Part shown: one piece after another, positions 20,019 to 50,597 of the stretch | Position numbering within the stretch: the first letter of the stretch is position 1 | Layout: each line of letters opens with the position of its first letter | Origin: Terribacillus sp. FSL K6-0262 | GTDB lineage: Bacteria > Bacillota > Bacilli > Bacillales > Amphibacillaceae | Assembly: GCF_037977385.1 (NCBI RefSeq) | Contig: NZ_CP150277.1 | Span: 1,341,001 to 1,405,000 of the forward strand | Direction of reading: 5' to 3' | DNA: 64,000 nt | Notes under the pieces: model-generated | Told to the model about the DNA's origin: nothing | What the model saw: only the letters and a program-made list of their open reading frames with translations | The model's database searches: none | Translations under genes and position numbers: made by a program

Positions 20019-23565
<3,547 letters not shown>

Positions 23566-23587
23566 TTACAATTCATTTACTTTTTAT

Positions 23588-24430
23588 TTACTGTAAACAT
23601 TCTGTCAGCCGATGTATATGAACAGTCAGATACAATTGCTCGTCTTTAGTGAGCCCGGAATGAAAGCGTTCCTTTAAATAAATATCCATCCTTTCCGTAC
23701 ATTCGAAAGCCCGCCTATATTTCAGCCGGACTTGATCGTAAAGAAATGATTCTGCCAGTTCCGGTAATCTTTCATCCCGCAGAAAGCGTATCGCAAAAAA
23801 ACGTAAATGTGTCAAAAATCGTTCGTAATTGATTGAGCTGTCATCCAGATTCCCTTTGAAGAAATAGGTTACGATATTCAGCAGATCGCTGACCATTTCC
23901 GTGACTTGCACAGCTCTGAGCATATGCTCCCCTGTCAACTGGCTATTGACCAAATACAAAGCAATCGAGGCGGCTTCATCTTCTCCCAATGCATAACCTG
24001 TTTCCTCTTCGACGATCTCCAGCGCTTTCCACGCAATCTTATATTCCTGTTGATAATATTTTCGAATCTCCCATAAAAGCGGATTTTTCAGTACGATTCC
24101 CTGTTTCTCTCTGCTGATGGCAAAACTTAAGTGATCAGTCAGCGCTATGTAAAGATATTCATCCAAATCATAAGGAAGATGCCCGCGTGCATATTCCACT
24201 ACCTTGGCTGCAATATTGAGATACACGGGGGAAACATCACGCAGAAGTGTCTCCAGTTTCTCAGTCATACCTGACTTTTCCAAGATGAACTTCTTCTCTA
24301 TCCCGGATGGATCAATGGTATCCCCGATTTTCTTTTTGAATGCCAAGCCTTTTCCCATTACAACCAGCTCTTGATTAGCATCATTCCTTGTGACTACCAC
24401 ACTGTTATTCAAGATCTTTTCTATCCTCAT
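23588..24430 (-). CDS. licT: BglG-family transcriptional antiterminator LicT
   Basis: 280 residues: N-terminal RNA-binding CAT domain (about 1-55, MRIEKILNNSVVVTRNDANQ) and two PTS regulation domains (about 70-170 and 175-280) with conserved histidines. LicT binds RAT sites in nascent mRNA when beta-glucosides are transported; its activity is set by phosphorylation from BglP and HPr. RAT/terminator units precede both licT itself and bglP. ATG 24430 follows GGGGG. Confidence 0.92.
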   Translation of the reverse strand: MRIEKILNNSVVVTRNDANQELVVMGKGLAFKKKIGDTIDPSGIEKKFILEKSGMTEKLETLLRDVSPVYLNIAAKVVEYARGHLPYDLDEYLYIALTDHLSFAISREKQGIVLKNPLLWEIRKYYQQEYKIAWKALEIVEEETGYALGEDEAASIALYLVNSQLTGEHMLRAVQVTEMVSDLLNIVTYFFKGNLDDSSINYERFLTHLRFFAIRFLRDERLPELAESFLYDQVRLKYRRAFECTERMDIYLKERFHSGLTKDEQLYLTVHIHRLTECLQ

Positions 24431-40286: not shown

Positions 40287-40700
40287 CTGTACGTTCACAA
40301 ATTGCTCAAAATATCCACCTACAACTTTACTCCTACTTAAGGCACTTGTCAAAAGTTATTTCACATGAGTTAATGTTTTTTTTCATTTCCTATTATATGT
40401 TCAAAAAAATGACATAGTAAAAGCCCTTTCATACTTCCGCTTCCGTAGCTTCCCCTTATTTCGGCAAAGTATTAATATTTTTACTTATTTTCCCGAAATC
40501 TTTGCTGGCAACTATCGCCTCCCAGCATCGATATTCAAACAATCCAACTCCGAATCCCTGATTCGTTTATCAGCCACGCTCATCCCCTGTTAGCAGAGCT
40601 ATACCCAGCGTGAAGAGAAACCGTAAAAATAGGTTAGGCAAGCTACCCTTACACAGGTGCCTACATACGATGAAGAAGAAAGCAAGAAGGGAGAATGATG
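40287..40700. other. Gene-free region between yjlC and the glycine-rich gene
   Basis: About 410 bp. No protein or RNA family recognised. The left part should contain the yjlC promoter; the right part is AT-rich then mixed, ending with GGGAG before the glycine-rich gene. I see no strong hairpin with a T-run. Confidence 0.4.
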
Positions 40701-41132
40701 ATGTACAACGAAAACGATGATAAGCAAAACCAGCAACGGCAGATCCAGTTTCCAGGCGGACCTGGATTTGGCGGTCCCGGCTTCGGCGGTCCGGGTTTCG
40801 GAGGCGGGCAAGGCGGCTTTCCATTCGGACCTCCCCCAGGAGCAGGCGGACAGCAAGGACAATTCGGGCCGCCTCCCGGGCCGCCTCCATCCCAAATTCC
40901 GCAGCTGCAGTCAGTGAGCGGCGGTCCATCTACTTTCGCAGTAGATCCAGGCGGAATCAGATTTTGCCTTTTCCGGTACACTTATATAGAGCTTGAAAAC
41001 GGACAGCGGTTCTGGTACTACCCAGTATTTGTGGGCCGCACCTCCATTGCTGGTTTCCGCTGGCGGCCGCAGCAGTTCCGCTGGCAGTATTTTGGTATCG
41101 ACCTTAGAAGAATCGCTGCATTCAGCTGCTAA
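40701..41132 (+). CDS. Gly/Pro-rich protein with conserved aromatic C-terminal domain
   Basis: About 143 residues. An acidic/Gln N-terminus (YNENDDKQNQQRQ) is followed by a low-complexity stretch with three GPGFG repeats and PPPG runs (about 17-65). A compact C-terminal domain follows (about 78-143: VDPGGIRFCLFRYTYIEL ... VGRTSIAGFRW ... FGIDLRRIAAFSC). A similar tail occurs in uncharacterised Bacillus proteins with different Gly/Pro-rich N-termini. No signal peptide. Three ATGs follow GGGAG; the third has the best spacing. Function unknown. Confidence 0.72.
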   Translation: MYNENDDKQNQQRQIQFPGGPGFGGPGFGGPGFGGGQGGFPFGPPPGAGGQQGQFGPPPGPPPSQIPQLQSVSGGPSTFAVDPGGIRFCLFRYTYIELENGQRFWYYPVFVGRTSIAGFRWRPQQFRWQYFGIDLRRIAAFSC

Positions 41133-41324: not shown

Positions 41325-42635
41325 TCATTTATCAAGCACACCCATGAGCTCTGGCAGCCAGAGGCTTAACGCCGGAATATAGGCGACTGCCAAAAAGGCT
41401 AGAATGACCGGAATATAAAAGAGCAGAAGCGGTTTGGTCACTTGTTCGATTGTGACATTTCCTACCTTCGCACCTATAAAGAGTACAGTACCTACCGGCG
41501 GCGTGATTGTACCGATTGCCAGCCCCATAGACATGATCATTCCGAAATGAACAGGATGAACACCCAGCTCCAATGCAATCGGCAAAAGAATCGGTGTAAA
41601 GATGAGCAAAGCTGGGGCGATATCCATAAATGTTCCGACAAGCAGCAGCAATAATACCATTATCAATATCAATATCATCGGACTGTCACTGATTTGAAGG
41701 ATGCCTGAACTGACCACCTGCGGCAGCTTGGAGTAGGACAGTATCCAGGACATTGCTGATGAAGCCCCGATAAGCAGTAAGATGACACCTGAGAAAATGA
41801 CCGTGTCCCGCAATATTATGGGGACATCTTTCCATTTCAGGCTTCTGTAAATCAAGCAAAGCACCACTGCATAGAGAATAGCCACAGCCGCTCCCTCTGT
41901 CGCGGTAAAGACACCGAACGAAATGCCGCCGATGACGATGACGATCAGCAGCAGACTCGGGATGGCGTCCAGGATTACTTTGGCTGCCTGGGAAAAACGG
42001 ATCGGTTCGGAGACTGCATATCCTTTCCGCTTGGCAACGATGAAAGCTGTGGCCATGATCAAGATGGACATTAGTATCCCTGGCACATAACCAGCAATGA
42101 ACAAGGCACCGATCGAGGTCCCCCCGCTCAGGACTGAATATAAGATTGGTGTGCCGCTCGGCGGAATGATCAACCCTGCTGGCGCAGAAGCTACGTTGAC
42201 AGCTGCCGAATAGCTTGGGTCATAGCCCTCTTTCTTCTGCATCGGCGCCATTATTTTTCCCATTGTGGCAGCTGATGCGATGGCTGATCCCGACAAGGCA
42301 CCGAACAAAGTATTACCAATGACATTTGTGTGCGCCAGGGAACCAGGCAGGCGTCCGGCCAGCAATTTCGCCAAATTGATCAGCCGCTGTGCAATCCCTC
42401 CTGTATTCATGATGCTTCCAGCCAATGTGAAGAAGACAAGTGATAACAGGACAAAGCTATCGATTCCAGCGATGAACTGCTGCGAGACGACCATTAATAT
42501 TTCATCGAATGGCAGCAGCATAGCCCCGGCAGCCAATGTAGATAAGCCGATACTGATTGCGATTGGAACACCAAAGAAAATGAGCAGGAAGAAAAGCGCG
42601 AACAAAACAATACCCGCAAGAGCCACACTCGTCAT
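41325..42635 (-). CDS. TRAP transporter large permease (DctM family)
   Basis: 436-residue membrane protein with about 12 spans. It shows the DctM/ITT-type repeats GSIMNTGGIAQRLI and AVNVASAPAGLIIPPSGTPILYSVLSG, and in the second half MGLAIGTITPPVGTVLFIGAKV. It catalyses Na+-coupled import of substrate handed over by the DctP protein. Last gene of a nine-gene unit. Overlaps the small permease gene by 4 bp. Confidence 0.9.
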   Translation of the reverse strand: MTSVALAGIVLFALFFLLIFFGVPIAISIGLSTLAAGAMLLPFDEILMVVSQQFIAGIDSFVLLSLVFFTLAGSIMNTGGIAQRLINLAKLLAGRLPGSLAHTNVIGNTLFGALSGSAIASAATMGKIMAPMQKKEGYDPSYSAAVNVASAPAGLIIPPSGTPILYSVLSGGTSIGALFIAGYVPGILMSILIMATAFIVAKRKGYAVSEPIRFSQAAKVILDAIPSLLLIVIVIGGISFGVFTATEGAAVAILYAVVLCLIYRSLKWKDVPIILRDTVIFSGVILLLIGASSAMSWILSYSKLPQVVSSGILQISDSPMILILIMVLLLLLVGTFMDIAPALLIFTPILLPIALELGVHPVHFGMIMSMGLAIGTITPPVGTVLFIGAKVGNVTIEQVTKPLLLFYIPVILAFLAVAYIPALSLWLPELMGVLDK

Positions 42636-43123
42636 GCTGCGTCCCTCCCCCGGGCAGCTTCCTTACGTGCCATGAATCGGTTCGTGACGATGTAATAGAC
42701 ACTCAACAAGCCGGATAATGGCAGCGCAGCATATACATAACCCATCGGCAGCCCCAGGACCGGTGAAGTCTGTGTCATGGAAGCAAGCATCAGCTGCGTG
42801 CCTCCTGCAATAAAGACAATCACCATGAACAGCAGTACCGTCACTTCGATGACCAGCTCGGCTGCTTTTTTATCCTTGGCATTTTTCCATTTGGACATCA
42901 GGAATGTCAGTGCAATATGCTCCTTCACACCGAATGCATAACTGGCACCGAGCAACCCGACCCAGATGAAGGAAAAGCGCAGTACCTCTTCTGTGAACAC
43001 GCTCGGATTCTGCAGGACAAAGCGAGTGAAGACTTGCCAGATCGCCCCTGCAACCAGGAAGACAGTCAATGTGCACGTCACCAGCAAAATACATTTATCT
43101 ATCCAATACCGTACTTTTTCCAC
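42632..43123 (-). CDS. TRAP transporter small permease (DctQ family)
   Basis: 163-residue protein with four spans and the DctQ pattern VFTRFVLQNPSVFTEEVLRFSFIWVGLLGASYAF (about 31-64). It forms the membrane complex with DctM. Starts at GTG 43123, with GAGGAG 9 bases upstream. Confidence 0.9.
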   Translation of the reverse strand: MEKVRYWIDKCILLVTCTLTVFLVAGAIWQVFTRFVLQNPSVFTEEVLRFSFIWVGLLGASYAFGVKEHIALTFLMSKWKNAKDKKAAELVIEVTVLLFMVIVFIAGGTQLMLASMTQTSPVLGLPMGYVYAALPLSGLLSVYYIVTNRFMARKEAARGRDAA

Positions 43124-43143
43124 CTCGTTCAGCTCCTCTTCAT

Positions 43144-44154
43144 TTACTGTAACGCCGCGATGTCATCCAGTACTTTGGCTACGTCCGGGTCTTGACGCTT
43201 TTCTTCAATCAGCGGCTGCACCAATTCCTTGAAAGGCTCCTGATCAAGCTCATTGAAGGTCACACCCATCTCGTCCTCAGCCTTTTGGATACTTTCTTCA
43301 ATCAGCTGGTCCCATCGGGCATTATGATTCTCAGAAGAAATCGCCGCAGCTTCCTCGACAGCCTGCTGCTGCTCCGGTGTCAGGCTGTCCCATGTCTTTT
43401 CGCTCATGATGAGAAAATCCGGAATTCTCGTGTGTTCATCATACGAAAAGAACTTGGCTACCTCACCATGGTTCGCATCGGTAAGTGCGATCGGACTGCT
43501 TTCCGCCCCGTCAATGACACCTTGCTGAAGCCCGGTGTACACTTCCGGCGCAGGCAGCGGCGTCGGCGAGGCACCCAGGAGCTCCATCGTCCGGATCGAT
43601 GTTGTATTCGTCATTGTACGGATCTTCAGTCCGTTCAGGTCTTCCGGTTTTTCAATCGGTGTATCTGCCGTATAGAAGCTCCGTGCCCCGGCATCGTAAT
43701 AAGCGATGCCATGAAGACCGATTGCCTCCAGCTCTTCATAAAGATCTTTCACGATGTCCGATTGCATAACCCGCTTGAAATGCTCTTCATCCTCGAAAAC
43801 ATAAGGCAAACTGAACACAGAGAAATCATCATAAAAACTCTCCAGAACCCCGCCATTCACTTTTGCCATATCGATGACGCCATTTTGGACAAGCTCCAGC
43901 ATCACCCTTTCATCACCAAGACCGCCTTCGGTATAGATATCCGTTGTCAGTACCCCATTTGTGCGCTGCTCCAGCTCTCCGCTGAATTCCTCCAGACTGG
44001 CATATACCGGGCTATTCGGATTATGGATATGCCCCATCGTCAGCCTTTTCGGCTCCTGGCCAGCGGCATCCGAAGCCGGAGCGACAACCATGACCACACC
44101 TATGGCAAGCAGCAGAACAGCAAGAATTAGCCATGTCGTTTTTGCTTGATTCAT
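43144..44154 (-). CDS. TRAP transporter substrate-binding protein (DctP family)
   Basis: 336 residues: signal peptide about 1-31, then a DctP-type binding protein. The AYYDAGARSFYT region and KIRTMTNTTSIRTMELLGASPTPLPAPEVYTGLQQGVIDGAE (about 175-217) contain the conserved arginine that clamps the substrate carboxylate. The family favours acidic sugars and keto or sugar acids. With the dehydrogenases upstream, an oxidised sugar or sugar acid is the best guess. Confidence 0.9.
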   Translation of the reverse strand: MNQAKTTWLILAVLLLAIGVVMVVAPASDAAGQEPKRLTMGHIHNPNSPVYASLEEFSGELEQRTNGVLTTDIYTEGGLGDERVMLELVQNGVIDMAKVNGGVLESFYDDFSVFSLPYVFEDEEHFKRVMQSDIVKDLYEELEAIGLHGIAYYDAGARSFYTADTPIEKPEDLNGLKIRTMTNTTSIRTMELLGASPTPLPAPEVYTGLQQGVIDGAESSPIALTDANHGEVAKFFSYDEHTRIPDFLIMSEKTWDSLTPEQQQAVEEAAAISSENHNARWDQLIEESIQKAEDEMGVTFNELDQEPFKELVQPLIEEKRQDPDVAKVLDDIAALQ

Positions 44155-44172
44155 CGTTCACCCTCCACCTAT

Positions 44173-44187
44173 TAAAAGCGCTTACAA
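44173..44187. promoter_or_regulatory. cre-like box before the TRAP genes
   Basis: The minus strand reads TTGTAAGCGCTTTTA, matching the cre consensus at 14 of 15 positions. It lies in the 54-bp gap between a dehydrogenase gene and dctP, so CcpA may block read-through into, or a local promoter of, the transporter genes. Confidence 0.55.
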
Positions 44188-44208
44188 TTCACGGCATGCG
44201 ACAGCACG

Positions 44209-45402
44209 CTATTCAGGCGTCCCTTTCGGCAGTGCCGAAATAACGTCAGCCTGAATAGCAGGCTTACTCCATGTTACTTGTAATTCATATGGCAGCTTCC
44301 CGCTCCTATAACACGTATTCAACGTCTGGTCCAAATCCATGACAGCCCGGATATTCGTCTCTGTCTTTCGAATCACTTCGTCGGGGAACGGTTGTCCAGC
44401 CAGTGTATCTTGATGTAATGCTTCAATGATTGCCGCATGTCCCAGAGCAGTTTCGTATGTGCACGGAATCTCCCTGCCATCCGTCAGGGCAGCAATGCAA
44501 TAATCCAATTTATCCAAATGATTGGCCTGCGGATTACCATAGACCTTCTCCTGGCCATTTTCCGTGCAGGCAGTGATGATACCTTGATCAAGATTGCAAT
44601 CATAGACGATGCAGCCTTTTTCAAAGTTGTATTGGAACTGCGGTCCCTGCTCCGTCCCTGTAGCATGCGATCCGTAAAAAAGCAGCTCACACTCTTCGTC
44701 TGTATACATTCGGATGGCACATGTATCAAATGTTTCCACCTCATTGGCTCGGTACAGCTCCGCTTCCAGACTTTTTATACACACCGTCTCCTGCTGCTCC
44801 TGCCCCAGCATGTAAAGCATATTGTGGATAAAATGAGCCGCGGCATTATTGGCTACACTATCGCGGATCAGACGCCCATCCTGCGCCTTCAGCTTCCCTG
44901 CCCACGCCGATCGGGAAAAATAGGCTTCATCGCGCGGCCACAGCACCAAGGTCTTCAGCTGCTTCGGCTTTCCGTAGATTCCATTCAGGATATCTTCCTT
45001 GAGCTCCAGGATTGGCGCAGTGAATGACCAGTTAAAACCGATGGCTGCCCATTTTCCCGATTCCAGGATTGCCTCATCCCATTTCTTTTTATCACGCATA
45101 TCGGCGAAAATCGGTTTTTCACAAAGGACATTCGAGCCATGCCGAAGTGCAAAAATTGCCTGCTCGGTATGCAAATGGATAGGCGTTGCAATAATCGCCA
45201 AGTCCGCTTGCTTTTGCTGATAAAAAGCGTCCATCCTTGTATAGATCGGGATCCCTTGCTGCTTCACCAGTTGCAAAAGGGGGCTTTTTTCCGGATGGAT
45301 CTCGACGATGCCAGCAAATACAATATCCTCCCGCTGCAGCAAAGCCTTCAAATAATGCTCCCCGTATCCATTCATCCCAATTAAAACGACTGCTTTCTTC
45401 AT
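44209..45402 (-). CDS. Gfo/Idh/MocA family oxidoreductase (third of the cluster)
   Basis: 397-residue NAD(P)-dependent dehydrogenase. Rossmann start VVLIGMNGYGEHYLKALL, lysine motif CEKPIFADM near 96, then a larger C-terminal domain. The usual GGG-D-x-G-x-H motif is replaced by SVANNAAAHFIHNMLYML near 190, so it belongs to a divergent subgroup. Likely acts on a sugar or cyclitol derivative. ATG 45402 follows GGGGAG and overlaps the stop of the preceding dehydrogenase gene by 4 bp. Confidence 0.82.
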   Translation of the reverse strand: MKKAVVLIGMNGYGEHYLKALLQREDIVFAGIVEIHPEKSPLLQLVKQQGIPIYTRMDAFYQQKQADLAIIATPIHLHTEQAIFALRHGSNVLCEKPIFADMRDKKKWDEAILESGKWAAIGFNWSFTAPILELKEDILNGIYGKPKQLKTLVLWPRDEAYFSRSAWAGKLKAQDGRLIRDSVANNAAAHFIHNMLYMLGQEQQETVCIKSLEAELYRANEVETFDTCAIRMYTDEECELLFYGSHATGTEQGPQFQYNFEKGCIVYDCNLDQGIITACTENGQEKVYGNPQANHLDKLDYCIAALTDGREIPCTYETALGHAAIIEALHQDTLAGQPFPDEVIRKTETNIRAVMDLDQTLNTCYRSGKLPYELQVTWSKPAIQADVISALPKGTPE

Positions 45403-46493
45403 CTTCTCTCCCCTGCCTTTGTCAGGCTGATTGCCTGTTCCTGCGCTTGGATTGCCAGCGCCGCTGCCCGGAAAGTATGTTCCTGACTCATTGCCGTCTC
45501 CGTCCCCAGCACACAATCATCAATCAACTGTCTGAAATACGGGATCCCAACCTTTCCTTTGGCAGGGAAATAGATCTCCTCTTCGTCCGTGACCACGTAC
45601 AGATGATCTCCTACGGCCGATCGTGCCACATCCGTATATTTGCGCAGTTCCACAAACCCGTTGGTACCGTGCAGCACCGTTCGTCCGTCTCCCCAGACCC
45701 GCAGTCCTTCGGGTGTGAACCAGTCGACACGGAAATATTGGCTGACGCCTGTATCCGTCACAAGTGTTGCATCACCGAAATCCTGCCAGTCACCGTACTG
45801 CGGATGGGCATAATTCGCCACCTTGCTATGGAGCACCTTCGCATCCTTGCACCTCGCATAATGAAGCAGCTGCTCAATTTGATGGCTGCCGATATCACAA
45901 AGGATGCCCCCGTTCTTCCCTGGATCGAAAAACCATGCCGGTCTCGTTTCTGCCTGCAGCCGATGCGGACCGGAACCAGTGAGCTGAAATAATTCCCCGA
46001 TCAGTCCCTCCTGCACAATCCCATCGGCAAGCAAAGCAGCCTCCACTGCTAATCGCTCGCTGTAAAACACGGCCCATTTCTTTCCCGAGCGCCGCACGGC
46101 ATCTTCCGCTGCATGCAATTGAGCCATCGTCGTGAAAGGAGCTTTGGCAGACAGAAAATGCTTATCATGTTCCAAGACCTGAACACCTAACGCTCCCCGC
46201 TTGGATGGCACGATACTTGTAGCCACCAGATCGACTTCGCTATGCAATATCGCAGACAGCTCTTGGACGACCTGCCCTGTTTGGAATTTCGCCCTAAGAG
46301 CATTCGCCTGATCTGGATTTTCATCATAGATGTGCATCAGCTGTGCCCCTGCATCCAATAAGCCCTGTACCATACTGTGGATATGCGGATGATCCAGGCC
46401 TGCAGCGGAAAAAGTAAAAGGCACCCTTTCCCGTTCAGCAGCAGCCGCTGCCATTCCTCGAGCCAGCTCCTCCAGCTGTTTCAGCAGTGCCAT
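45399..46493 (-). CDS. Gfo/Idh/MocA family oxidoreductase with altered EKP motif (second of the cluster)
   Basis: 364 residues. The fold and the motif GGILCDIGSHQIEQLLHY near 198 are those of Gfo/Idh/MocA enzymes, but the normally invariant EKP catalytic motif reads SAKAPFTTM, and the first glycine motif is replaced by SAAGLDHPHIHSM. Cofactor binding or chemistry may therefore differ. ATG 46493 follows GGGGAGG. Overlaps the next gene by 4 bp. Confidence 0.78.
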   Translation of the reverse strand: MALLKQLEELARGMAAAAAERERVPFTFSAAGLDHPHIHSMVQGLLDAGAQLMHIYDENPDQANALRAKFQTGQVVQELSAILHSEVDLVATSIVPSKRGALGVQVLEHDKHFLSAKAPFTTMAQLHAAEDAVRRSGKKWAVFYSERLAVEAALLADGIVQEGLIGELFQLTGSGPHRLQAETRPAWFFDPGKNGGILCDIGSHQIEQLLHYARCKDAKVLHSKVANYAHPQYGDWQDFGDATLVTDTGVSQYFRVDWFTPEGLRVWGDGRTVLHGTNGFVELRKYTDVARSAVGDHLYVVTDEEEIYFPAKGKVGIPYFRQLIDDCVLGTETAMSQEHTFRAAALAIQAQEQAISLTKAGERR

Positions 46494-46509
46494 GCAGCCT
46501 CCCCCCCTT

Positions 46510-47328
46510 CTACACATGCGCTTGATAGCATTGCTTCATTTGATGGAGCACCTCATCTCCTGGCTGATCCCAAATTTCCTGATTGATGATTTCCACTTCG
46601 ATCGGACCACGATAACCTGCTTCCTCCACCATATTGCGCATTTCACGCAAATTGATGACACCGTCTCCCATCATGGCTCTTCCTTTGAACATATCCTCCA
46701 TCGGCACCTTCCAATCCGATACATGGAAACCGAGGATCTTACCCTTGGCACGGTCGATCTGTTTTTTCAGTTCTGGATCCCACCAGACATGGAAGGCATC
46801 GACCACTACCCCGAGATGATCGGATTGCAGCTGCTCTGCCAATGTGTTCGCCTGTCCCAGTGTATTGATCACGGAACGGTCTGCGGCATACATGGGATGA
46901 AGCGGCTCGATTCCGAGCCTTACCCCCATTTCTTCTGCATACGGCAGGATCGCTTCGATTCCTTCCCGCACCCAATGACGAGCCTGCGCAATATTTTTAT
47001 CGGATGCAGCACCGCATACGAGCACCAGCACATCGGTACCCAATGCCTTTGCATCTTCTATTGCCCGTTTATTATCGTCGATGCGCTGTTGCCTTTCCTG
47101 CTCGGTCGCTGCCGGGAACATACCGCCTCGGCAAAGACTGGATACTTGCACACCATATTCAGTCAATAGCTTCTTCGCTTCTTTCACAGCGATTTTTTCC
47201 AGCTTATGCCGCCAAATGGAAATCCAATGGATATCATGCCGGGCACAGCCTTGGATCGCTTCGGTCAGGGACCAGTTTTCCGTCGTAATCTGATTGAGAC
47301 TGAGAAGCTGCAAATCAGCCTTTGTCAT
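46510..47328 (-). CDS. Sugar phosphate isomerase/epimerase (xylose-isomerase-like TIM barrel)
   Basis: 272-residue TIM barrel of the AP-endonuclease/xylose isomerase-like family. Metal ligands are recognisable in LGIEPLHP (near 140), VVVDAFHVWWD (near 175), LGFHVSDW (near 200) and the final PIEVEIIN (near 245). Such enzymes isomerise, epimerise or dehydrate keto sugars, as IolE and IolI do in inositol breakdown. The start overlaps the DUF993 gene by 4 bp. Confidence 0.82.
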   Translation of the reverse strand: MTKADLQLLSLNQITTENWSLTEAIQGCARHDIHWISIWRHKLEKIAVKEAKKLLTEYGVQVSSLCRGGMFPAATEQERQQRIDDNKRAIEDAKALGTDVLVLVCGAASDKNIAQARHWVREGIEAILPYAEEMGVRLGIEPLHPMYAADRSVINTLGQANTLAEQLQSDHLGVVVDAFHVWWDPELKKQIDRAKGKILGFHVSDWKVPMEDMFKGRAMMGDGVINLREMRNMVEEAGYRGPIEVEIINQEIWDQPGDEVLHQMKQCYQAHV

Positions 47329-48500
47329 GACATCACCTTCTGTTCGATGCCTGCAAGCTTCAATACCAGCTGCATCCGTTCTGACGCAAGCGCTGGATCC
47401 ACCAGGACACCCGCCTGATCAGCCAAACGGAATAATTCACTCAAATGGAGGACAGACCTGGCCCCTTCCGCTCCGCCGATCATCCGGAAATGTGATTGAT
47501 ACCCATTCAGATAAGCCAGGAAAACGACTCCTGTCTTGTACGCGTACGTCGGCGTTTCGAAGATGTGCCTTGCCAGCGGTACCGTTTTATCGAAAATTCC
47601 CCCATATCCATCCAGATCGTCCGAATCGAGCGCACGCAGCGCCTCGGAAGCAGCTGGTGCAATTGCATCGAATATCCCGAGCAGTGCATGGCTGTATCGA
47701 TTGCCATCGCCTTGAATCAGCTCTGGATAGTTGAAGTCGTCCCCTGTGTACATTCGGACAGATGCCGGTAATTTGGATCGCATCTCGATCTCCCTGTCTT
47801 TATCCAGCAAAGAAATCTTGATCCCATCGATTTTCGCTTCATATCGGTGGATCAAATCAAGACAAGCATCCATCGCATGGCTGACCGTCTCCGATCCCCA
47901 GTAGCCTGTCAATTTCGGGTCGAACATCGGTCCGAGCCAATGCAGGATGACCGGCTGTTCCACCCCTGCAAGCACATGTCCGTAGACGTCCTTGTAATCT
48001 TCTGCAGATCGGGCGCTGGCAGAAAGCGCACGGCTCGCCATCAAGATGACCCGGCTGCCAGTGCCTTCGACAAATGTACACTGCTCCTCATAAGCTTGCT
48101 TGATTTCCGACATCGTAAACGTCCTGTCTGCAGGCAAATGATCCGTCCCGGCACCGGAAGCAAGCATTGCTTTTTCCTTTTTTGCTTCCGCTGCACTTAC
48201 CGAAATCAATTCCTTTGCCATCTCCCATGTCAGCCCCATGCCGCGCTGCGCCGTATCCATCGCTTCTGCCACACCAAACCCGAGCTTCCATAATACCTTG
48301 CGATACGCCAAGGTGGCCTCCCAATCAATAGCCCCGCCAAGAACCGGGTGCGCTTCGGAAGCCGCATCTGCAACCACGTGAGCTGCAGAATAGGCTGTCC
48401 TCGTCCGGAAGGATCCCTCAGCCGGATAAGCAGAAGCCGGATGGACCAGCTTGTATTCCTCCAGCTTGCGCCCTTGCTTCGGTAAAAGAATCGTTGTCAT
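47325..48500 (-). CDS. DUF993 protein (dihydrodipicolinate synthase-like aldolase fold)
   Basis: 391 residues. The central part (VILMASRALSASARSAEDYKDVYGHVL, then PVILHWLGPMFDPKLTGYWG and IDGIKISLLDKDREIEMR) fits the DUF993 branch of the DHDPS/NAL superfamily. The lysine in IDGIKISLL would be the Schiff-base lysine. An aldolase or lyase step on a keto sugar acid is plausible but unproven. ATG 48500 follows AAGGAGG; the longer frame is not used. Confidence 0.8.
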   Translation of the reverse strand: MTTILLPKQGRKLEEYKLVHPASAYPAEGSFRTRTAYSAAHVVADAASEAHPVLGGAIDWEATLAYRKVLWKLGFGVAEAMDTAQRGMGLTWEMAKELISVSAAEAKKEKAMLASGAGTDHLPADRTFTMSEIKQAYEEQCTFVEGTGSRVILMASRALSASARSAEDYKDVYGHVLAGVEQPVILHWLGPMFDPKLTGYWGSETVSHAMDACLDLIHRYEAKIDGIKISLLDKDREIEMRSKLPASVRMYTGDDFNYPELIQGDGNRYSHALLGIFDAIAPAASEALRALDSDDLDGYGGIFDKTVPLARHIFETPTYAYKTGVVFLAYLNGYQSHFRMIGGAEGARSVLHLSELFRLADQAGVLVDPALASERMQLVLKLAGIEQKVMS

Positions 48501-48514
48501 GCAGCTTCCTCCTT

Positions 48515-49666
48515 TTAAACTTCCAGACTCGGAACAGTGACCCATTTCTTCTCTCGCCAAGCTTCCAGTCCCAAATCGGACAGCTGGGTGCCTTTTGCAC
48601 CTTCCAGCAAGTCCCATGGAAATTCTGCATCCTCTTCCACATGCTTAAGGAATAATTCCCATTGAATCTTGAATCCATTATCATAAGTGCGATTTTCCGG
48701 CAATGTCTCCCACTGGGAGCGGAAATCGATTGTATTCGGAATATCCGGATTCCACACTGGCTTTGGCGTCGTCACCCGATGCTGGACCTTGCAATCACGC
48801 AGGCCTGCCACTGCGCTTCCATGGGTTCCATCCACCTGGAACGTGACGAGATCATCACGATCGACCCTTGTCGTCCAGGAGGAATTGGCCTGGACGACTA
48901 TCCCGTTCTTAAGGGCGAAAATGGCGTAGGCTGCATCATCTGCTGTCGCTTTGTAGCGATTGCCCGCTTCATCCACCCGATATGGGATATGTGTCGCTCC
49001 AAGACAGGTCAAGCTATCGATTTCACCGAAAAGATGGTCGATGACATATCGCCAATGCGCAAACATATCGACGATGATACCGCCGCCGTCTTCCGCTCGG
49101 TAATTCCAGCTTGGGCGCTGCGCCTCCTGCCAATCGCCTTCGAACACCCAGTAGCCAAAGTCCAGTTTTACCGACAGGATTTCACCGAAGTAATTGCTAT
49201 CGATCAAATGCTTCAGCTTCAGCAGACCTGGCAGGAAAAGCTTATCCTGCACAACACCATTCTTCACACCAGCCTCGCGCGCCAATCTGGCCAGCTCCAA
49301 GGATCCTTCCAGGCTGGTGGCAGTCGGTTTCTCGCAATAAATATGCTTCCCCGCCTCTATTGCCTGCTTGATGCTTGCTTCCCTGCGATTGGTCGTCTGG
49401 GAATCAAAGTAAATCTGGTTATAGCCATCAGCTAAAGCCGAATCCAAGTCGGTGCTGTAGCGCTCCACATCATTTTCCCGCGCAAGCTTCGCCAGCTTCT
49501 CCTCATTCCGCCCGATAAGTATCGGATCCGGCATCAATCTGTCTCCGCTGGAAAGCAGCACCCCGCCTTCTGCTCGTATCGCCGCAATGGACCGGATAAG
49601 ATGCTGATTCGTCCCCATCCTGCCTGTTACACCGTTCATGATTATCCCTATTTTCTTTGTCGCCAT
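48515..49666 (-). CDS. Gfo/Idh/MocA family oxidoreductase (first of the cluster)
   Basis: 383-residue dehydrogenase. Cofactor motif MNGVTGRMGTNQHL (residues 9-22), catalytic IYCEKPTATSLEGS near 110 and GGGIIVDMFAHWRYVIDHLFGE near 195 with the conserved D and H. The RAEDGGGIIVD context is typical of sugar dehydrogenases. First enzyme gene after the AraC regulator. GAGGG precedes ATG 49666. Confidence 0.85.
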   Translation of the reverse strand: MATKKIGIIMNGVTGRMGTNQHLIRSIAAIRAEGGVLLSSGDRLMPDPILIGRNEEKLAKLARENDVERYSTDLDSALADGYNQIYFDSQTTNRREASIKQAIEAGKHIYCEKPTATSLEGSLELARLAREAGVKNGVVQDKLFLPGLLKLKHLIDSNYFGEILSVKLDFGYWVFEGDWQEAQRPSWNYRAEDGGGIIVDMFAHWRYVIDHLFGEIDSLTCLGATHIPYRVDEAGNRYKATADDAAYAIFALKNGIVVQANSSWTTRVDRDDLVTFQVDGTHGSAVAGLRDCKVQHRVTTPKPVWNPDIPNTIDFRSQWETLPENRTYDNGFKIQWELFLKHVEEDAEFPWDLLEGAKGTQLSDLGLEAWREKKWVTVPSLEV

Positions 49667-49704
49667 TCCGCGCCCTCCCACTATCCGATTTAAGGATAGT
49701 ATAA

Positions 49705-49717
49705 GTAAAGCGTTTAC
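49705..49717. promoter_or_regulatory. cre-like palindrome before the dehydrogenase operon
   Basis: GTAAAGCGTTTAC has 5-bp arms; on the minus strand ATGTAAACGCTTTAC matches the cre consensus at 13 of 15 positions. It stands between the AraC gene and the first dehydrogenase, where a promoter would be. Confidence 0.5.
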
Positions 49718-49747
49718 ATTTTTTCTTATCAATCTTTTCCCTCATTC

Positions 49748-50536
49748 TCAATTTCGGAAGTCATCTGTCGTGCGCCGATAAACATTCGGCGTGACACCCA
49801 CATATTTCTTAAAGACACGATAAAATGTCGATACCGCTTCAAACCCTACCTCAAAGCAAATCGAGACGATCTCCCTGTCGGATTCACGCAGCATTTTCTT
49901 TACCTTCAAAAGCCGTACCTCCGTCAGGAATTGATAGGGCGTCATACCATACATTTCTTTGAAGATCTGATTCATGTAGCGGCTGCTCACACCTGCCTTG
50001 GCAGCGACTTCCTCCATGCTGGCAATCTCGAAATATCGTGTTTCCAAGTAATGCTTGAGCCATTTTGCCCGTCTCGTATTAGTATCCTGTGTTGTATCCT
50101 CCCGCTGCATGATGGCAAGCTGATAAAGCACCTGCGAGAGCAGCAGTTTCAGCCCCATCGCATGAATCGGATGCCTCTGCGATTGCTCGAACAGCATCTT
50201 CCGCAGCAACTGCCGAAGCTCGCTGCTCTCGAACAGGGATAAATTCAAGACGCGGGACTCTGCAAATACTGGTTCCACAAGATAAGAAACGACATCTTCG
50301 GATAGATGCCGGAAATCGAATTCCAGGACAAGCACGGTCATTTTCGACTGCGCTTGGATGGCATGATTTGTATGCGGGGAGATCAGCACGATACTATCGG
50401 GATGCAGCTTCCGACCTTCCGTATCCAATTCGCATTTCCCCTCCCCATCAAGTACGTAGAGCAGCTGATGCGTGTTGTGCTTATGCCTGGCAACTTCATT
50501 TTTTTCCTGATGCTTATTTTCAAAGAGTCTGATCAA
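49748..50536 (-). CDS. AraC family transcriptional regulator
   Basis: 262 residues. N-terminal cupin sensor (about 1-130, HKHNTHQLLYVLDGEGKCEL) and C-terminal double HTH (about 160-258: MEEVAAKAGVSSRYMNQIFKEMYGMTPYQFL and ICFEVGFEAVSTFYRVFKKYVGVTPN). It heads the dehydrogenase-TRAP block in the same orientation and is the likely inducer-responsive activator. Starts at TTG 50536, preceded by GGAGG. Confidence 0.88.
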   Translation of the reverse strand: MIRLFENKHQEKNEVARHKHNTHQLLYVLDGEGKCELDTEGRKLHPDSIVLISPHTNHAIQAQSKMTVLVLEFDFRHLSEDVVSYLVEPVFAESRVLNLSLFESSELRQLLRKMLFEQSQRHPIHAMGLKLLLSQVLYQLAIMQREDTTQDTNTRRAKWLKHYLETRYFEIASMEEVAAKAGVSSRYMNQIFKEMYGMTPYQFLTEVRLLKVKKMLRESDREIVSICFEVGFEAVSTFYRVFKKYVGVTPNVYRRTTDDFRN

Positions 50537-50555
50537 TATACATTCACCTCCAATA

Positions 50556-50597
50556 AAAAAGGCCGGGATGCATTCGAGGCATCCCGGCCTTTTTCTT
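50556..50597. terminator. Terminator between the CNNM gene and the AraC gene
   Basis: AAGGCCGGGATGC pairs with GCATCCCGGCCTT around ATTCGAG, flanked by A6 and T5 runs. Confidence 0.9.

Follow-up and report, generated by a model that had tools for sequence, protein, structure and literature searches.

Bacillus subtilis uses rhamnogalacturonan I (RG-I), going by the extracts of PMC7596534 and PMC8787155, through the YesW and YesX lyases, the YesOPQ ABC importer and the cytosolic YesR. Levoglucosan breakdown proceeds by oxidation, beta-elimination, hydration and reduction, and its enzymes are a dehydrogenase that uses NAD, a reductase of the Gfo/Idh/MocA family and two proteins that carry sugar isomerase annotations (extract of PMC7676230). 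Galacturonate is the substrate of the Ashwell pathway (UxaC, UxaB and UxaA). A redox pathway that breaks down glycans with broad specificity has reportedly been studied as well.

The nine-gene block considered here belongs to a soil bacterium, Terribacillus sp. FSL K6-0262. As the original prediction had supposed, the literature searched describes no pathway with this exact set; searches of titles and abstract starts on rhamnogalacturonan/Gfo, 3-keto/MocA/glucuronide and redox glycan breakdown returned no description of the block, and no paper of the full-text literature searched names DUF993. On balance, the block probably serves the catabolism of a small acidic RG-I fragment, most likely a uronate-rhamnose disaccharide, a reading that draws on the neighbouring genes in relatives, the PL11 and rha genes of the same genome, co-occurrence across 398 genomes and the kinship of DctP. 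Its proposed likeness to the B. subtilis system, as the above extracts describe it, would comprise the same polymer, cleavage by a PL11 lyase, an acidic disaccharide processed in the cytosol and release of rhamnose, but the block has a TRAP in place of an ABC importer, and its genome, in which GH88/105 was not found, has DUF993, a TIM-barrel enzyme and three dehydrogenases of the Gfo type in its stead. With LgdA-LgdB1-LgdB2-LgdC of Bacillus smithii (extract of PMC7676230) it shares dehydrogenases and annotated sugar isomerases, whereas its substrate would be acidic and DUF993 is present. Ashwell genes adjoin the block in one relative (L010), but none lies inside it.

Gene content, layout and control

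The window, i.e., the whole stretch analysed, comprises 64,000 nt of contig NZ_CP150277.1 (positions 1,341,001-1,405,000). Nine ORFs of its ORF list, all on the minus strand, span 50536 to 41325, and their Pfam names (HTH_AraC, three GFO_IDH_MocA proteins, DUF993, AP_endonuc_2, DctP, DctQ and DctM) agree with the catabolic block originally predicted. A 16-pair terminator-like hairpin (50556..50594) separates the AraC gene from the gene upstream of it and is the likely upstream limit of the block. The AraC-type regulator (49748..50536; AraC_binding/cupin and HTH_18) is followed by the dehydrogenase Gfo1 (48515..49666; EKP and DMFAH motifs; 561 bits with 3oqb), DUF993 (47325..48500; 391 aa; Pfam 589 bits), the AP_endonuc_2 TIM barrel (46510..47328; 143 bits), by Pfam and structure match a candidate isomerase or eliminase, and two divergent Gfo/Idh/MocA proteins: Gfo2 (45399..46493; 292 bits with 2p2s), with AKAP for EKP, and Gfo3 (44209..45402), which keeps EKP and has NAAAH for DxxxH. 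The TRAP transporter consists of the solute-binding protein DctP (43144..44154), the small permease DctQ (42632..43123) and the large permease DctM (41325..42635). Three pairs overlap by 4 bp (DUF993/isomerase, Gfo2/Gfo3 and DctQ/DctM), and the likely starts, unlike those of the longest ORFs, are ATG 49666 for Gfo1, ATG 48500 for DUF993, ATG 46493 for Gfo2 and ATG 45402 for Gfo3.

It is plausible that all nine genes form one regulon. Of 80 loci, 18 have a relative of the AraC gene on the strand of DUF993 and no more than 2.5 kb from it. Two CcpA-type (cre-like) sites on the minus strand, TGTAAACGCTTT before Gfo1 (49707..49718) and TGTAAGCGCTTT before DctP (44175..44186), were found by pattern search with what we take to be the cre consensus, and they suggest at least two promoters. 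The strict consensus has three matches in the window against 1.6 expected, none of them inside the block, and TGTAAACGCTTT deviates from the longer consensus patterns at one or more positions; when one mismatch is allowed, a second consensus matches the DctP site, but not the Gfo1 site. The shorter pattern TGTAARCGCTTT occurs twice in the window against a mean of 0.05 and a maximum of 1 in 100 shuffles, a flattering count, since the pattern was picked after both sites were seen. Around PL11 (19 kb) the strict consensus has no match, and in the rha locus one against 0.58 expected. We infer that AraC would induce and CcpA repress the block.

A putative metal site of the isomerase (E141, D177, H202 and E246) is predicted from what we take to be the metal ligands of IolI. 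The original prediction was reminded of inositol and levoglucosan routes, a likeness that holds for the enzyme classes and chemistry, which are as in the levoglucosan route (extract of PMC7676230), but fails for the substrates. Although the enzyme superfamilies are identical, every NCBIfam inositol and levoglucosan model stays far under its cut-off: the block dehydrogenases reach at best 57.6 bits against 355 for inositol dehydrogenase and 54.4 bits (Gfo1) against 650 for levoglucosan dehydrogenase. The importer is of a carboxylate-binding class, and a single IolB-family gene (L118) was noticed in passing in the relative loci; an inositol-like or anhydrosugar route is thus very improbable.

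The conserved core and DUF993

In 70 of 80 loci, DUF993 is flanked on the same strand by Gfo1, at most 300 bp away, and by the isomerase, at most 400 bp away, the arrangement for which a neighbourhood search had been suggested, and Gfo1-DUF993-isomerase is a real conserved cassette. DUF993 has the TIM-barrel fold of the DHDPS/N-acetylneuraminate lyase superfamily, and its Lys228, invariant across 41 aligned sequences, is aligned by hhalign with the Schiff-base lysine of DapA (DHDPS) at E 2e-4, with a probability of only 46%. It is a separate Pfam family from the superfamily members DapA, KdgD and YagE and shares 12-18% identity with the listed DHDPS structures; its fold and lysine support the aldolase-like character first assigned to it and make it a candidate Schiff-base lyase. 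Sinorhizobium meliloti has proteins of the same kind as DUF993 (SMc04132, structure 4dnh, 442 bits) and the isomerase (SMc04130, structure 3ju2, 244 bits), and SMc04132 and SMc04133 are entries in a gene table of a PhaR regulation study (extract of PMC12542648).

The protein search scored at least 8000 DUF993 relatives. The triad occurs widely among proteobacteria and actinobacteria; its chemistry is therefore probably not confined to RG, which counts against an RG-I substrate. Alternatively, the triad could serve a widespread pathway of its own that handles some keto-sugar acid and is supplied from RG-I by Gfo2, Gfo3 and the transporter. It mostly occurs without Gfo2/Gfo3. Its direct neighbour is a glycerate kinase gene in L002, L004 and L005 (annotated) and L032 (by similarity), and in L092 and L095-L097 such a gene is found roughly 5 kb away or closer. 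In L089 and L090 the triad is next to an enolase-superfamily gene, relatives of which occur in 25 more loci. We give this alternative a low probability; it is compatible with an RG-I module, being the same claim viewed from the core.

Pectin and rhamnose genes in relatives and in the genome

DctP groups with the uronate-binding TRAP proteins (extract of PMC7660916), which agrees with the sugar acid first proposed as substrate, and has an altered pocket. Its best solved relative by sequence, 4n91, binds D-glucuronate (same extract); the ligand arginines R158 and R179, aligned with those of 4n91, are present in 50 of 50 aligned sequences, while Ser219-Ser220 replaces Asn-Asn of 4n91, as in 15 others of the 50. 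The uronate-group ligand Asn (Asn210 in STM3169) is thus not found in DctP at the presumed corresponding position. A linkage of DctP to Gfo3 through apparent shared contigs (11/24 in the DctP subfamily versus 6/24 in the next group) was weak and was rejected.

All nine genes occur in identical order in L009 and L120; L064 has one additional gene between Gfo3 and DctP, and L116 has the other eight, the AraC gene not being found beside them. The five-enzyme block was observed in seven genomes, and in four of them it adjoins pectin, uronate or rhamnose genes (PL11, rha or uxaABC-like), as does the partial block of Shouchella. Around the block and TRAP genes of L116 lie PL11 (RGL11_C, 867 bits), GH42, RhaI (644 versus a cut-off of 531) and RhaE (1018 versus 568). 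L064/L136 reads block-TRAP-RhaE-RhaI-RhaB on one strand, with RhaE over its cut-off and RhaI and RhaB called by phmmer; in L117 the block is followed by PL11, with GH43 and GH4 upstream, and L013/L135 holds a RhaB-RhaA fusion, RhaE, the block (Gfo2 not found) and PL11. The block of L010/L137 precedes uxaA-like, uxaB and uxaC genes and a PL9-like lyase, and in L118 UxaB and a UxaA-like gene adjoin Gfo3. This rhamnogalacturonan/rhamnose context, absent from the original prediction, shows up only in relatives and elsewhere in the genome.

Other loci count against an RG-I substrate. Four Gracilibacillus loci (L011, L016, L022 and L119) combine the core with Gfo3, lack Gfo2 and adjoin apparent glycerol genes, L020 adjoins preA/preT-like genes, the importers of L117 and L013 are ABC and not TRAP systems, and the genomes of L010 and L064 have no PL11 match. 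In the window genome and two near kin, moreover, the block lies apart from PL11 and the rha genes.

The window genome does encode the RG-I lyase PL11 (G000:C1:850811-852319, 845 bits; unlinked to the block) and a rhamnose pathway, with RhaE at 999.6 bits and RhaB and RhaA over cut-off in locus L134. GH88/105 (PF07470), the only GH families searched for as possible cutters of the disaccharide, had no match at E <= 0.001. UxaC is absent; a UxaC-dependent sink was rejected on this ground, and the absence, as regards the fate of the uronate, counts against an RG-I fragment. Altronate dehydratase was also rejected; the sole GD_AH_C gene exceeds the galactarate dehydratase cut-off instead (GarD, 875 versus 731 bits), and KdgD scores 411 versus 374. 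This combination would suit the import of free hexuronate (galacturonate or glucuronate) and its degradation by a UxaC-independent oxidative route, pectin merely supplying both sugars, as would the free uronates bound by the kin of DctP (extract of PMC7660916) and the uxa genes directly after the block in L010. However, the block and TRAP genes of L064/L136 are followed directly by the genes for rhamnose isomerase, kinase and aldolase while the UxaC of that genome lies elsewhere, the Ser-Ser pair departs from 4n91, and UxaC is in any case present in 18 of the 21 genomes with DUF993; we regard free hexuronate as rather unlikely.

Among 398 genomes of the class, counted raw with kinship ignored and with GH88/105 scored absent when no match reached 1e-10, all eight Gfo3-positive genomes have PL11. 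Gfo3 is found in all five PL11-positive genomes without GH88/105 (again ignoring kinship), one of which, G294, has a weak partial match (24.7 bits, 35.5 with neighbours) over the Pfam cut-off, and in 3 of the 35 with it. Gfo3 may therefore mark the rhamnogalacturonan association, although the three that retain GH88/105, and its occurrence in only 5 of 145 genera, hence in few independent lineages, count against RG-I. A rhamnose-uronate fragment of other origin (for example from ulvan, from gums of plants or from exopolysaccharide of bacteria), with PL11 present because a common habitat supplies both polymers, is decidedly unlikely: many carriers are, going by their names, salt-tolerant Bacilli, and a Marinococcus locus has rhamnose genes with no PL11 match in its genome, but in L116, L117 and L013/L135 PL11 belongs to one cluster with the block or with the Gfo3 form of it, and it accompanies Gfo3 throughout the 398-genome sample, which was searched for Gfo3, PL11 and GH88/105.

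Proposed route and its significance

Gene set, order, conservation, neighbourhoods and co-occurrence were computed, as were the DUF993 fold and lysine and the DctP kinship; from these we infer the RG-I substrate, each enzymatic step and the direction of each redox reaction. A secreted PL11 lyase would release the uronate-rhamnose disaccharide from RG-I, and the TRAP transporter would take it up into the cytosol by way of its carboxylate. There the TIM-barrel enzyme, together with the Gfo-type dehydrogenases, could part rhamnose from the uronate, the freed rhamnose passing to RhaA/RhaB/RhaE, and the oxidised uronate could be reshaped and cut by Gfo1, the isomerase and DUF993 with its aldolase fold and Schiff-base-type lysine. 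More tentatively, and at present doubtfully, we hypothesize that the block replaces GH105, with C3 oxidation of the uronosyl residue of the RG-I disaccharide by a Gfo-type dehydrogenase, beta-elimination of rhamnose by the TIM-barrel enzyme and reduction of the keto-uronate or its cleavage by DUF993.

If this replacement is true, DUF993 gains its first function and a pectin glycosidic bond is cleaved by several enzymes and no hydrolase. Oxidation and elimination instead of the usual hydrolase would give pectin degradation a new route, would extend redox-elimination cleavage of glycosides to pectin and would explain how some PL11-bearing bacteria manage without GH105. A testable RG-I substrate for DUF993 would open up a large family for which a structure has been solved.

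Organization of the block and its enzymes

The nine co-directional genes of the original prediction were borne out at 50536-41325 on the minus strand, with 4-bp overlaps in three gene pairs, and Pfam named them in agreement with it (AraC, Gfo1, DUF993, TIM-barrel isomerase, Gfo2, Gfo3, DctP, DctQ and DctM, in gene order). A hairpin of 16 pairs sits immediately upstream of the AraC gene, and CcpA-type sites precede Gfo1 (49707-49718) and DctP (44175-44186). The short CcpA-type pattern TGTAARCGCTTT, picked only after both sites had been seen, is confined to them window-wide, and a window search with the strict cre consensus recovered neither. A strict cre match occurs at 23551-23565, inside a region (20019-24430) where a GH1 glucosidase, a PTS beta-glucoside permease and a BglG-type antiterminator were recognised by eye. 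Facing the DctM end is a Gly/Pro-rich ORF of 145 aa (40695-41132), and a similar ORF holds the same position at L009 and L120, loci from close kin of the window strain.

The window genome (3.35 Mb, 99.97% complete) has a single DUF993 gene, whose product is 89% identical to that of Terribacillus halophilus, which makes Terribacillus the probable genus. The closest structures to the isomerase are 7vpf (376 bits) and 3ju2/SMc04130 (244 bits), and in an alignment with IolI its residues E141, D177, H202 and E246 fall on what we take to be the metal-ligand positions of that enzyme. Judged by EKP and DxxxH, the motifs we assumed for the dehydrogenases, Gfo1 has both, Gfo2 has AKAP in place of EKP, and Gfo3 has NAAAH in place of DxxxH; none of the three reached the cut-off of any NCBIfam model listed.

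A widespread core in several catabolic contexts

Scanning GTDB genomes with an alignment of DUF993 gave at least 594 confirmed places, the best 80 of which were analysed by tblastn. Of these 80, 75 have Gfo1 on the DUF993 strand no more than 300 bp away, 72 have the isomerase no more than 400 bp away, and 70 have both this close. Gfo2 was found within 4 kb on the same strand in 4/80 and Gfo3 anywhere in the flanks in 10/80. The hosts among the matches listed include Bacilli, Bradyrhizobium, Streptomyces, Ktedonobacter and Gemmatimonadetes MAGs; the core of Gfo1, DUF993 and isomerase is so widespread that it is unlikely to be specific to rhamnogalacturonan. We also examined 16 of 147 DUF993-bearing plasmid records, one of them unannotated. 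The isomerase adjoins DUF993 in 14/16 and Gfo1 does so in 6/16, so DUF993 and the isomerase stay together most consistently, with variable accessory genes. In six of the ten records in which Gfo1 is not adjacent (L007, L093-L097), a "3-ketoacyl-ACP reductase" directly precedes DUF993.

A second catabolic context for the pair is formed by L005-L008 and L093-L097, where it occurs without Gfo1 amid varying sets of genes for CoA-transferase, enoyl-CoA hydratase or MaoC, acyl-CoA dehydrogenase, 3-ketoacyl reductase, ETF, GMC and aldehyde dehydrogenase; glycerate kinase is present in four of these nine clusters (L005, L095-L097). Plasmid pAO1 of Paenarthrobacter nicotinovorans (L004, 368-12379) carries a sugar ABC importer, GMC, AldH, Gfo1-like, DUF993 and glycerate kinase genes consecutively, with the isomerase not adjacent. 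Genes annotated as enolase/mandelate racemase adjoin the core on Sinorhizobium and Chelatococcus plasmids (L089, 10175-11590; L090, 6393-7781). Their relative at L041 (7286-8683; 437 and 374 bits), which represents a cluster spread over 25 loci, was matched by neither Pfam nor NCBIfam at the thresholds used.

Neighbourhoods of the full and partial block

Gfo1, DUF993, isomerase, Gfo2 and Gfo3 are contiguous in seven genomes: the window, L009, L120, L010 (Geomicrobium), L064 (Marinococcus), L116 (G376) and L117 (G059). Inspection by eye recognised no pectin genes beside the block in the three Terribacillus-like genomes. PL11 (rhamnogalacturonan lyase), RhaI, RhaE, GH42 and a RhaB-like gene lie near the block at L116, and PL11, GH43, GH4 and ABC rather than TRAP genes at L117. 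The downstream order at L064 is TRAP-RhaE-RhaI-RhaB, with an aldose-epimerase-family gene inserted between Gfo3 and DctP. At L010 the block is followed by a uxaA-like gene (GD_AH domains, scoring below the galactarate dehydratase cut-off), uxaB (split over two frames, both below cut-off), uxaC (first frame over cut-off) and a long protein whose matches are to pectate lyase 1ru4 (111 bits) and, at a weak 28 bits, to rhamnogalacturonan lyase 5olq. Neither Pfam nor NCBIfam gave a match, at the thresholds used, to a 572-aa protein between PL11 and RhaE at L116 (3963-5681). Near the block and beside apparent ABC importer genes, a further Gfo-type protein of 433 aa (by PDB matches) occurs in Geomicrobium (L137, 9440-10741) and a similar one of 454 aa, recognised by eye, in Shouchella (L135, 13758-15122).

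Gfo3 also occurs at Shouchella L013, where Gfo2 was not found, together with a RhaB-RhaA fusion, RhaE, the block, a two-component system, an ABC importer and PL11. At L118 it is followed by an IolB/KduI-family gene, a UxaA-like gene and UxaB, with no DUF993 found in the 19-kb stretch. At four Gracilibacillus loci (L011, L016, L022, L119), which have no Gfo2, the core and Gfo3 lie next to apparent glycerol genes, and L020 adjoins preA/preT-like genes; these neighbourhoods count against the reading of the block as a rhamnogalacturonan I (RG-I) module.

A possible route without the usual hydrolase

The window genome encodes a PL11 (845 bits, 630-aa reading frame, N-terminus resembling a signal peptide), a rha operon, galactarate dehydratase and KdgD; genome searches returned no GH88/105 match and no UxaC, and inspection by eye of the 19 kb around PL11 recognised no sugar ABC genes. 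Among the seven full-block genomes, five have PL11 (G002 and G020 do not) and six gave no GH88/105 match, G059 having two. In 398 genomes of the class, with all marker searches taken as one draw since their handles agreed, PL11 (E <= 1e-30) was found in 40, GH88/105 (E <= 1e-10) in 66 and Gfo3 (E <= 1e-50) in 8, subject to genes missed in draft genomes. All eight Gfo3 genomes, which belong to five genera and represent few independent gains, have PL11 (Fisher 5e-9, ignoring kinship). Gfo3 is present in 5/5 PL11-positive genomes without GH88/105 versus 3/35 with both (Fisher 8.5e-5, likewise ignoring kinship); at a laxer threshold G294, which is among these five, shows a weak and partial match to GH88/105 (24.7 bits, or 35.5 counting its neighbours). 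Of 13 PL11 genera, three lack GH88/105 in all or most of their members; all three have Gfo3, compared with two of the remaining ten (genus-level p about 0.035, by hand).

YesR is a member of GH105. In B. subtilis, according to PMC7596534 and PMC8787155, YesW/YesX cleave RG-I, YesOPQ takes up the unsaturated product, and cytosolic YesR then hydrolyses it. A PL11-bearing strain that lacks GH105 has to process this product differently. Levoglucosan breakdown, as described in PMC7676230, dispenses with a hydrolase: its steps are oxidation, beta-elimination, hydration and reduction, and its enzymes are a dehydrogenase acting at C3, proteins that carry a sugar isomerase annotation, and a reductase of the Gfo/Idh/MocA type. 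Enzymes of these kinds are also encoded in the block, where the dehydrogenases could carry out oxidation and reduction, and the TIM-barrel enzyme, which has a putative metal site, elimination or hydration. We propose that Gfo3 and/or Gfo2 would oxidise the uronosyl residue, the isomerase would expel rhamnose, and Gfo1 and DUF993 would process the keto-uronate to C3 units; the glycerate kinase adjoining the core in other taxa is compatible with a C3 product.
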